Origin: an uncultured Verrucomicrobiota bacterium
GTDB taxonomy: Bacteria > Verrucomicrobiota > Verrucomicrobiia > Limisphaerales > UBA9464
DNA length: 48,228 bases
Assembly: GCA_903842505.1 (NCBI GenBank)
Contig: CAIMMI010000295.1
Location: 1-48,228, forward strand
Direction: 5' to 3'
The notes beneath the pieces were generated by a model. The model made no database searches and had not been told where the DNA came from. It saw only the letters and a program-made list of their open reading frames with translations. Positions within the stretch are counted from its first letter, which is position 1; each line of letters begins with the position of its first letter. Shown piece after piece: positions 21,136 through 25,188 of the stretch. The position numbers were made by a program, and so were the translations under genes.

Positions 21136-21214
21136 AATCTTCCAAGGCCTCGCCCCCTTTGCCTCCGCGCTGCGGTTCGTCTAGCATCGGCTCGTGGCCA
21201 GTCCGGACAATCCA

Positions 21215-21505
21215 ATGACCGTTCCGGCGCCCCTGGTGACCCCGCGCGATGAAACGCGCGAGGCGCGGGCGCCGGGCTACCTCGTGATCTGCTGGGATGA
21301 TCCCGTCAACTTGATGAACTACGTCACGCACGTCTTCCAGGTTGTGTTCGGGTGGGATCGGAAGAAGGCCGAGCGCCACATGATGGAGGTTCATGAGAAG
21401 GGCAAGTCGGTGCTCGCCCGCGAAACCTTCGAGGAGGCCGAAGCCCACGTGCACCAGTTGCATGCCTATTCGCTGCAGGCCACGGTCGAGCGGGACGACG
21501 CATGA
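21215..21505 (+). CDS. clpS: ATP-dependent Clp protease adaptor ClpS
   Basis: A 96-residue ClpS from the ATG at 21215; a GTG at 21194 would add seven residues, and neither start has a good ribosome site. The fold is marked by YLVICWDDPVNLMNYVTHVF (the N-degron-binding pocket segment), WDRKKAERHMMEVHEKGKSV and the conserved end FEEAEAHVHQLHAYSLQATVE. ClpS binds proteins with N-terminal Leu, Phe, Trp or Tyr and delivers them to ClpAP (or ClpCP). The aat gene, whose product attaches Leu/Phe to N-termini and so makes ClpS substrates, is two genes downstream. The stop overlaps the next small ORF by 4 nt (ATGA at 21502-21505). Confidence 0.93.
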   Translation: MTVPAPLVTPRDETREARAPGYLVICWDDPVNLMNYVTHVFQVVFGWDRKKAERHMMEVHEKGKSVLARETFEEAEAHVHQLHAYSLQATVERDDA

Positions 21506-21651
21506 ACCAGGAAACGGCACTTCATTCCTCCGCACAGGACGCCCATTCCGCAGATGGAAAGTCTGAGGCCATGGATCTGCCCCCAGCCGTTTTGATCGAG
21601 GTCCCCGTCCATCGGCCCCACCGGCGGATCCAACCGCCATTTCCAGGATGA
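21502..21651 (+). CDS. 49-residue microprotein linking clpS to the DUF2017-like gene
   Basis: A short open frame with ATG at 21502 inside the clpS stop (ATGA) and TGA at 21649-21651 inside the start of the next gene (ATGA at 21648-21651). It encodes MNQETALHSSAQDAH at the N-terminus, a central DLPPAVLIEVPVHRPHRR and a proline-rich end (QPPFPG). No family is recognised. The exact 4-nt overlap on both sides is the main evidence that it is translated; without it, a gap of about 140 nt would separate two otherwise tightly packed genes. It could be a real small protein of the N-degron pathway or merely a coupling device that carries ribosomes to the next start. Confidence 0.6.
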   Translation: MNQETALHSSAQDAHSADGKSEAMDLPPAVLIEVPVHRPHRRIQPPFPG

Positions 21652-22130
21652 AGCTCCTTGTCCGAGAACCCGGCCGACTCGTCTACCAACTGCGCGCCCG
21701 GGACCGCAACAGCCTCCGCGGGATCCTGCGGCTGGGCTCACAACTCCGGCGGCGTCCGCCCCGCTTCACCCGGGGGCCGATCGGTTTCGTTCCGCCGGAT
21801 TCCGATGAAATGCTGCGGGAAGCAGCGCTCGAGCAGCAGCAGGACAGTCGCAACAGCGCCTTGGGATGGCTGGAGGATCCGGCGCGCTGCATTACCGGCA
21901 AGGGTGGTTTTGCGCTGACCCTGAGCGAGGGTGAGGCTGAAACGCTCCTCCAGGCGCTCAACCACGCGAAGATGGCATTCTGGGAGGCCCTGGGCTGTCC
22001 GGATGAAAATGCGCCCGTGCAGCCGTCCATCAGCCCTGAGATCGAGACACTCCAGCAGGCGAAGGAAATCGCCAACGCCTACATCGCCTGGTGGGTGGAT
22101 TCGCTGTCCGGAGACGCCCCCAACCCCTGA
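21648..22130 (+). CDS. DUF2017-like protein
   Basis: A 160-residue soluble protein between clpS and aat. The most informative segment is FALTLSEGEAETLLQALNHA followed by KMAFWEALG near residues 85-115, which resembles the DUF2017 pattern (hydrophobic-L-x-x-x-E-A-x-x-hydrophobic-L-x-A-L-N, then a length-matched helix ending in LG). DUF2017 genes follow clpS in many actinobacteria, which fits its place here. The C-terminus is helical (EIETLQQAKEIANAYIAWWV). Function is unknown; an accessory to ClpS-dependent degradation is reasonable. Its start overlaps the microprotein stop, and its stop is 4 nt before the aat GTG. Confidence 0.6.
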   Translation: MKLLVREPGRLVYQLRARDRNSLRGILRLGSQLRRRPPRFTRGPIGFVPPDSDEMLREAALEQQQDSRNSALGWLEDPARCITGKGGFALTLSEGEAETLLQALNHAKMAFWEALGCPDENAPVQPSISPEIETLQQAKEIANAYIAWWVDSLSGDAPNP

Positions 22131-22134
22131 TCCC

Positions 22135-22860
22135 GTGCCCATCCCGGTCATCCCCCTCCTTGGTTCGGCGCTCGAATTTCCTCCTGCCGAGGACGCGCCT
22201 CCTCAGGGATTGGTGGCTCTGGGGGGCGACCTGTCGGTCGAGCGACTGCTGCTGGCGTATCGCAGCGGGATCTTTCCGTGGAGTGCAGCCCCGGTCACGT
22301 GGTGGTCACCGGATCCGAGGGCCATCTTCGACTGCGACGAGATCCACGTTTCCCGAAGCCTGCGCCGGACACTTCGGCGAGCGCCCTTCACCATCACCCT
22401 GGATCGTTGCTTCGGCGGGGTCATCCGGGCCTGCGCCTCGGTGCCACGGGAGGACGGTGCCACCTGGATCACCCCCGCACTCATCAAGGCGTACGAGCGC
22501 CTGCACGCGGCGGGGTGGGCCCACAGCCTCGAGTGCTGGCAGGGCAATCAACTGGCCGGAGGGATCTACGGGGTGGCGATCGGATCCCTCTTCGCGGGCG
22601 AATCCATGTTCCACCACGTTTCCGACGCCTCGAAAGTCGCCGTCGTCCACCTCATGGAGCATCTCCGGGCACGGGGCTACACCTTGTTCGACACCCAGAT
22701 GCTGACCGAAACCACCCGGTCGTTGGGCGCCTTTGAGATCCCCAGATCGGAATATCTCCGACGGTTGGCGTTGGCCATCGACCAGCCAACCACCTTCAGT
22801 TCGATGCCGACGGGCGCACCGCCCCACGCCGGTCCAGTCACGCCGCTGGATCCGACGTGA
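22135..22860 (+). CDS. aat: Leucyl/phenylalanyl-tRNA--protein transferase
   Basis: A 241-residue enzyme started at the GTG at 22135. It transfers Leu or Phe from aminoacyl-tRNA to proteins with N-terminal Arg or Lys, creating degrons read by ClpS. Family blocks are all present: FPPAEDAPPQGLVALGGDLS, LLAYRSGIFPW then WWSPDPRAIF, ITPALIKAYERLHAAGWAHS and the hallmark LECWQGNQLAGGIYGVAIGS, then FAGESMFHHVSDASKVAVVH and LFDTQMLTETTRSLGAFEIPR. It is the last gene of the clpS operon, 4 nt after the DUF2017-like stop. Having transferase and adaptor in one operon makes functional sense; in E. coli clpS and aat are close but not in such an arrangement. Confidence 0.95.
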   Translation: MPIPVIPLLGSALEFPPAEDAPPQGLVALGGDLSVERLLLAYRSGIFPWSAAPVTWWSPDPRAIFDCDEIHVSRSLRRTLRRAPFTITLDRCFGGVIRACASVPREDGATWITPALIKAYERLHAAGWAHSLECWQGNQLAGGIYGVAIGSLFAGESMFHHVSDASKVAVVHLMEHLRARGYTLFDTQMLTETTRSLGAFEIPRSEYLRRLALAIDQPTTFSSMPTGAPPHAGPVTPLDPT

Positions 22861-24815: not shown

Positions 24816-24965
24816 CCCCTCCGGGTCATGCTTCTGGAGGGGTTTGACCTCCTTCTGCAACTCCTCCGGGGTTGGTTTTCTTCTCTGTCCAGACCCGGGG
24901 TGCGCTTCGAGACCCCGGTCTATCGTCTCCCACCCCCTCAGGGATGAGAGGGCCTGCCCCCCGTC

Positions 24966-25075
24966 GTACTCGTACTCCTACTCAGCCCGAAGGGCGGTAC
25001 TCGTACTCGGTCCCTGGGAGCTCTCAAACACCCCAAGTCCGCCATCGGCTCGAGTACGAGTACGAGTACGAGTAC
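24966..25075. repeat. GAGTAC hexamer runs forming an inverted repeat
   Basis: Plus-strand gtactcgtactcctactc (24966-24983) and gtactcgtactc (24997-25008) face four perfect gagtac units at 25052-25075. The arms can pair over at least 12 bp with a loop of about 43 nt. Hexamer runs of this kind expand and shrink by slippage. The structure ends 113 nt before the debranching-enzyme start. Confidence 0.8.
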
Positions 25076-25188
25076 GCCCTCCGAGGCGATGGGGACCCTC
25101 ACCCCAACCTCACTGCCGATATCCTCTGCGCCGGGCATTGCCGAGATCACTGGAATCCCCTCACCCTTGGGTCTCTGCAAGAGGCTAC

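Follow-up and report, generated by a model that had tools for sequence, protein, structure and literature searches.

DUF2017 genes accompany one subclass of the N-degron adaptor ClpS in two bacterial phyla and may encode its partner

Background

Two described systems come close to the one studied here. In actinobacteria, an uncharacterised helical protein was reported in 2006 to be encoded with clpS and with JAB, ThiS/MoaD and cysteine synthase genes (PMC1779556, table row 4d), and in chloroplasts ClpF has been proposed as a second adaptor with ClpS1 and ClpC (PMC11371169, PMC7966870). According to the parts of the papers available to us, Asn47, Asp49 and His79 of Caulobacter ClpS contact the alpha-amino group of the substrate (PMC12493166), some pocket residues are replaced in mycobacterial ClpS (PMC5515868), and ClpS of M. 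tuberculosis is tabulated with Pro36 and reported to bind ClpC1 (PMC6274998). Here we analysed a contig of 48,228 nucleotides (nt) from an uncultured Verrucomicrobiota bacterium (CAIMMI010000295.1 of assembly GCA_903842505.1; this whole stretch is called the window below), from a genome that is 95.6% complete, in which clpS and aat, the reader and writer genes of the N-degron pathway, flank a gene for a 160-residue protein that we assign by profile comparison to DUF2017 (PF09438) as a divergent member. The helical protein of 2006 is probably DUF2017 as well, since DUF2017 is the downstream neighbour of clpS in the actinobacterial loci examined here.

An earlier reading of the window, made from its letters (the sequence-only reading), had proposed a four-gene N-degron operon of clpS, a microprotein gene, a DUF2017-like gene and aat. 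Because this operon joins writer, reader and putative partner, an N-degron role is the natural first test for DUF2017. A literature search for 'DUF2017', with most subscription journals outside its coverage and Verrucomicrobia not among its terms, returned no paper, and neither did one for ClpS together with Rv1332, with most subscription journals likewise outside coverage. Rv1332 is presumably the gene beside clpS (Rv1331).

Results and discussion

DUF2017 genes and a ClpS subclass

The pocket positions of the window ClpS are D28, D29, P30, N32, M34 and H60, and alignment to Caulobacter ClpS (3dnj) maps the proline onto Asp49. We refer to ClpS proteins with proline after [ND]D as DP-ClpS. In a sample of 288 genomes from the window's phylum, 94 had ClpS and 99 had Aat; 93 of the 94 clpS neighbourhoods were read and 92 typed (left out were G129, with ClpS below the cut-off, and L290, with 98 nt of room). 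Among these 92 genomes, DP-ClpS occurred with DUF2017 in 53 and without it in 6, and other ClpS occurred with DUF2017 in 2 (both with alanine) and without it in 31 (Fisher test, 3e-16, not corrected for kinship). The same contrast was repeated inside families, namely f8 (2 with and 4 without DUF2017) and f20 (1 with, 2 without). With the window's order added (127 ClpS), the Asp49 position of the 89 ClpS accompanied by DUF2017 was proline in 87 and alanine in 2, with no acid or amide, and that of the 38 unaccompanied ClpS was D in 28, N in 2, E in 1 and P in 7; N/D28, H60 and M34 were kept in nearly all. DUF2017 accompanies one ClpS subclass, with proline or alanine at the Asp49 position, which is newly described here, and the rule makes a sharp prediction, open to mutation, of the ClpS proteins that come with a partner.

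The pairing was also surveyed in a second phylum, sampled as 296 genomes of the phylum of the Nocardioides genome G352. ClpS was found in 172 of them, DUF2017 in 124 and both in 123, the sole DUF2017-only case (G504, no ClpS match) being a fragment at a contig edge. The two genes were adjacent in 116 of the 118 pairs with both places listed, a count that omits six of the 124 DUF2017 genomes for lack of a listed ClpS place (G504 included), and in G543 and G446 DUF2017 was kept although unlinked from clpS. From their listed place, 31 of the 49 ClpS-only genomes could be typed, 26 as non-DP and 5 as DP, with 18 untyped; the fetched stretches of the 26 non-DP loci held no DUF2017. We also observed that these 26 of the 31 loci (L354–L384) encode E. 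coli-like ClpS, with two or three in several genomes, and give no PF09438 match, and that in G543 (L385) a release-factor-like gene with an RF-1 domain (E = 1.2e-12) stands right after the DP-ClpS gene, the locus in G446 (L386) being similar by eye.

In a search by motif, the degenerate ClpS pattern W[ND]DP..N.M yielded at least 119 named loci, mostly actinobacterial by title, and all 119 hold clpS. Iterated profiles with an actinobacterial start placed DUF2017 directly downstream in 112 of the 119 listed loci, and six of the other seven end within 250 nt of fetched DNA. The genomes of all seven have a PF09438 match; provided that the contig numbering corresponds, it lies close downstream of clpS (in L125 at a distance of about 520 nt). 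Class-level DUF2017 genes numbered 49 at E ≤ 1e-3 with the profiles of other groups, and four more (L222, L232, L271, L281) were found solely by iteration. Across 230 ClpS–DUF2017 pairs, the ten best inter-protein covariation scores averaged 1.28; in 20 within-group shuffles the corresponding mean was 0.92 and the highest value 1.04.

Overall, the genomic association supports well the view that DUF2017 acts with ClpS, because in two phyla DUF2017 stays next to a single ClpS subclass, two genomes retain it away from clpS, and no DUF2017 was seen beside a ClpS with an acid or amide at the Asp49 position. Most sampled genomes with DP-ClpS have beside clpS a gene that goes unmentioned in the available passages on mycobacterial ClpS, which name no partner of the DUF2017 kind.

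In the sequence-only reading, DUF2017 was tied to the pathway by its position between writer and reader, and this part of the argument did not survive wider sampling. No Aat match was found in 25 of the 55 window-phylum ClpS genomes with DUF2017, compared to 6 of the 37 without it (Fisher test, 0.004, towards avoidance), which amounts to slight mutual avoidance, and the control C. glutamicum combines ClpS and DUF2017 with no Aat match. Looking within about 2 kb, we saw aat beside DUF2017 in the window's order and in G118 only. We therefore regard ClpS rather than Aat as the likely partner of DUF2017, because 25 of the 55 DUF2017 genomes have no Aat match. Five loci from genomes of the window's phylum (L226, L256, L273, L274, L277) have clpS followed directly by aat, without DUF2017, and their ClpS is without the proline motif.

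The 160-residue protein as a divergent DUF2017

Searched alone against Pfam, the window protein matched DUF2017 as its sole family (E = 0.011, 16.4 bits) without reaching the gathering cut-off of 25, and within its own genome it was the only PF09438 match at E ≤ 10 (E = 0.09). Because this score is below the cut-off, we lower the claim for the single sequence and base the family assignment on profile–profile comparison, the check that the sequence-only reading had called for. A1, an order-level alignment and profile of 40 homologues of the window protein, was compared by hhalign with DUF2017 proteins from the named loci, 105 in number (Prob 97.5, E = 5.8e-12, 150 columns); 7 known verrucomicrobial loci had been taken out to leave these 105, and the gathering profile had contained those 7 rows. 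An alignment of 48 clpS neighbours from named loci, 47 of which match PF09438 at E ≤ 0.01, gave E = 1.8e-19 against A1, with 3 verrucomicrobial rows included. Moreover, 24 of the 40 homologues matched PF09438 at E ≤ 10 (best 1.7e-9), and the profile of the 105 matched 12 of the 40 at E < 1e-3, the window protein itself not among them; at E ≤ 10 it matched not a single one of 1000 shuffled copies. Taken together, these profile comparisons identify the 160-residue protein as a divergent DUF2017, and the proposed relation stands. Outside its own order, A1 found DUF2017 in 5 of the 288 genomes, in one of them not beside clpS.

The homologues in A1 share a conserved block, LLQxLNxxR/KxxxWxxLGxP, and the position most strongly conserved in DUF2017 holds a basic residue (R in 97% of 230, K in the window protein). 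The AlphaFold2 model of the window protein (predicted local distance difference test, pLDDT, 91.6; predicted template-modelling score, pTM, 0.86) has the elements E-E-H-H-E-E-H-H, that is, a beta-hairpin and two helices followed by a second beta-hairpin and two helices. The model of an actinobacterial DUF2017 (L067, PF09438 at 9.6e-51; pLDDT 93.7) reads E-E-H-H-E-H-H, with one strand of the second hairpin assigned and three short extra helices, so that the two predicted folds, compared by element order alone, are similar.

Other matches were set aside. Foldseek found no match in the PDB at E ≤ 0.001 for the window protein or the actinobacterial DUF2017, and when the window protein was run as a single sequence over genome and viral contigs, no relative turned up. 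A likeness to Cas12a (the best hit of VIA-align; Z 5.6, root-mean-square deviation 5.7, 137 residues) was rejected as lying in the tool's range for common arrangements, and sequence matches in the PDB (best E = 0.059 with A1 and 0.18 with A3) were taken as chance. Among the 40 homologues, HAB was matched by 6 (best 0.0095) and Prominin by 2 (best 0.042), and each remaining Pfam family, HTH_38 (0.02) among them, by 1.

Operon layout and gene order among relatives

The features of the operon are given in Table 1. All four open reading frames (ORFs) and the three junctions described for them were confirmed on the sequence: the ATGA at 21502–21505 is common to the clpS stop and the ORF2 start, that at 21648–21651 to the ORF2 stop and the start of the 160-residue ORF, and 4 nt separate the TGA of the latter (22128–22130) from the GTG of aat (22135). 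The window ClpS belongs to the ClpS family by Pfam (E = 1.2e-18, 67.1 bits, cut-off 23) and NCBIfam NF000668 (93.8 bits, cut-off 86), and the window Aat to the Aat family by Leu_Phe_trans (PF03588, E = 3.6e-69) and TIGR00667 (207.6 bits, cut-off 143.55). It also holds the GESMF and DTQ blocks, which we take to have a catalytic role in Aat. The next gene after aat is carA (Pfam).

Table 1. Features of the clpS–aat region in the window
Feature	Position	Strand	Remarks
clpS	21215..21505	+	N-degron adaptor, DP subclass; alternative in-frame GTG start at 21194
146-nt insertion relative to L010	21502..21647		Flanked by two ATGAA copies; dispersed repeat
49-codon ORF (ORF2, "microprotein")	21502..21651	+	Most likely an insertion by-product
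Gene of predicted divergent DUF2017 (PF09438) protein, 160 amino acids	21648..22130	+	hhalign, Pfam on homologues, AlphaFold2
aat, leucyl/phenylalanyl-tRNA–protein transferase	22135..22860	+	N-degron writer; GTG start; PF03588, TIGR00667

As a four-gene N-degron operon, the proposal stood for clpS, DUF2017 and aat and fell for the microprotein, for which no counterpart was found in relatives and whose DNA matches a dispersed repeat. In phmmer searches (E ≤ 0.01), ORF2 had no match in the loci of other genomes (L003–L060, L062–L064), and it had no match in Pfam or NCBIfam at E ≤ 10 or in PHROGs at E ≤ 0.1. In L010, whose DUF2017 is 66% identical to that of the window, clpS and DUF2017 overlap by ATGA and the insertion is absent; the window is 146 nt longer here, and the two ATGAA copies that bound the extra DNA account for both junctions reading ATGA. 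The inserted DNA has 17 matches in its own genome at E ≤ 0.001, itself counted, and corresponds to a dispersed repeat; there are partial copies, and the ends match one another as an imperfect inverted repeat (12 nt, 83%). We thus reject ORF2 as a conserved gene; it is most likely the by-product of a chance insertion and, judged by these comparisons, no part of the conserved system, and it may be translated, with coupling through ORF2 possible. Copies of the repeat were also seen on contigs C199, C2, C265, C87 and C8 of the same genome (G000), among others, and one copy falls precisely on the clpS/DUF2017 junction.

In the relatives set of 58 genomes, the window protein was matched in 45, counting its own, and these 45 loci together with L003 of G118, from another class, made up the 46 loci examined. 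The weak matches L004–L009 (E = 0.0017–0.0081) have no adjoining clpS or aat and were dropped as chance, and L054, a second weak match in G316, was also left out. The order clpS–DUF2017–aat was kept in 42 of the 46 loci, well beyond chance, in the synteny check that the sequence-only reading had proposed, and clpS lay upstream of DUF2017 in 43, the window among them; L049 has no aat within the downstream 2.1 kb. Both starts were called in 41 loci, the window counted; in 30 of these the DUF2017 start and the stop of clpS share 4 nt, and the non-overlapping loci have gaps of 0 to 159 nt in 10 relatives and of 142 nt in the window. Among 21 relatives tested for ClpS, it was present in 8 of 8 with a window-type protein and in 2 of 13 without a match, both of these cut by a contig end.

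Elsewhere in the window, hexamer tandem repeats of TCGTAC and CGAGTA, mutual reverse complements up to rotation, occur at 24964–24983 and 25051–25076. They lie in the upstream part of a long ORF, and the 3' half of this ORF codes for a glycogen-debranching enzyme.

Possible roles of DUF2017

On the genomic evidence, we consider it moderately likely that DUF2017 is dedicated to DP-ClpS as a partner and either makes up a two-part adaptor together with it or sets the activity of DP-ClpS at ClpC–ClpP. DUF2017 would most likely bind ClpS or the ClpS–ClpC interface and would help to select or hand over N-degron substrates, rather than inhibit their turnover. In the window's order of Verrucomicrobiota, where the pair and aat share one operon, writer, reader and the reader's partner would be made together. 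The machine would be ClpC: the window genome has two proteins with Clp_N matches, one of which is ClpB by NCBIfam, and the second falls below the ClpA and ClpB cut-offs.

Several observations weigh against this partnership or parts of it. The second Clp_N protein is tentatively named ClpC by exclusion, and a Pfam listing at E ≤ 1e-5 shows no UVR domain in this protein. In vitro, ClpS of M. tuberculosis, which is itself of the DP kind, acts on ClpC1, and the part of the report available mentions no further partner (PMC6274998). No ClpS–DUF2017 fusion was found among the loci examined, and the covariation above the shuffles, though compatible with contact, could stem from shared ancestry. DP-ClpS occurs without DUF2017 beside it in 5 testable genomes of family f23 and in G134 (f11); A1 misses class-level proteins found by other profiles, so that its silence in f23 proves little. 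In the five DP ClpS-only loci of the Nocardioides phylum, the next ORF (141–150 amino acids, starting within 25 nt of the clpS stop) is DUF2017-like by eye, and Pfam matched one of the five (1.7e-4, 22.3 bits), below the cut-off. Lastly, L018 and L028 (one genus) and L041 have DUF2017–aat with no clpS within the upstream 1.5–2.4 kb.

Genomic linkage alone cannot tell whether DUF2017 helps or restrains ClpS, and the same co-occurrence data would serve an anti-adaptor or sequestering partner that limits N-degron turnover, in which case the operon would carry its own brake. There is precedent in acetylated HspQ and MgtC, which oppose ClpS function according to the available part of PMC7966870. 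We nevertheless regard a brake as unlikely: one would expect it to disappear more readily than the protein it acts on, yet 123 of 172 ClpS genomes of the Nocardioides phylum keep DUF2017, and 26 of the 31 typed ClpS-only genomes have the other kind of ClpS.

A more speculative possibility, and a rather improbable one, is that of a two-protein N-recognin outside the E. coli type, in which DP-ClpS would work only with DUF2017, which would complete or reshape recognition. If this were true, clpS–DUF2017 would be an ancient alternative N-degron reader of Actinomycetota and Verrucomicrobiota. We give still less credence to DUF2017 completing the degron pocket by replacing the lost Asp contact. The lost residue is indeed one of the three alpha-amino contacts named in the available text (PMC12493166), and none of the 89 ClpS with DUF2017 keeps an acid or amide there; yet N/D28 and H60, which supply the other contacts, and M34 are nearly always kept, the best-conserved residue in DUF2017 is basic rather than acidic, proline occupies the position without DUF2017 beside it in 7 of the 38 unaccompanied ClpS, and seven PDB entries with a DP-ClpS chain (9ayn and others) name that chain ClpS, which indicates that it has been studied by itself. 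Finally, a function unrelated to N-degrons, with DUF2017 carried in a stable operon as a transcriptional regulator (the label of Rv1332 in the table available, PMC11056549) or in sulphur/cysteine metabolism (JAB, ThiS/MoaD and cysteine synthase genes also being listed for the actinobacterial operon, PMC1779556), is very unlikely, as the third gene varies (it is aat in the window's order, and the other verrucomicrobial DUF2017 loci examined have none within about 2 kb) and clpS is constant, DUF2017 presence tracks a residue inside ClpS, also within f8 and f20, and no other Pfam family recurs strongly among the 40 homologues.

Comparison with known systems

The preferred reading of DUF2017 as a dedicated partner of DP-ClpS has its closest known way of working in chloroplast ClpF–ClpS1, where the second adaptor would operate similarly (PMC11371169, PMC7966870, as far as the available parts go). 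The likeness is one of analogy and does not extend to domains: ClpF has uvrB/C and YccV domains, and none of the 40 DUF2017 homologues matches either (20 families, E ≤ 10), which places DUF2017 outside the ClpF type. With the ClpS–ClpA N-degron pathway of the E. coli type, the window's genome shares the ClpS core and Aat; it differs in the proline at the Asp49 position of ClpS and in the presence of DUF2017, and none of its Clp_N proteins scores above the ClpA cut-off. The actinobacterial operon has clpS with an uncharacterised helical protein; its description, in the part available, names no Pfam family, covers actinobacteria only and suggests ubiquitin-like modification (PMC1779556). Compared to that operon, the third gene here is aat, and the pairing with clpS reaches another phylum.

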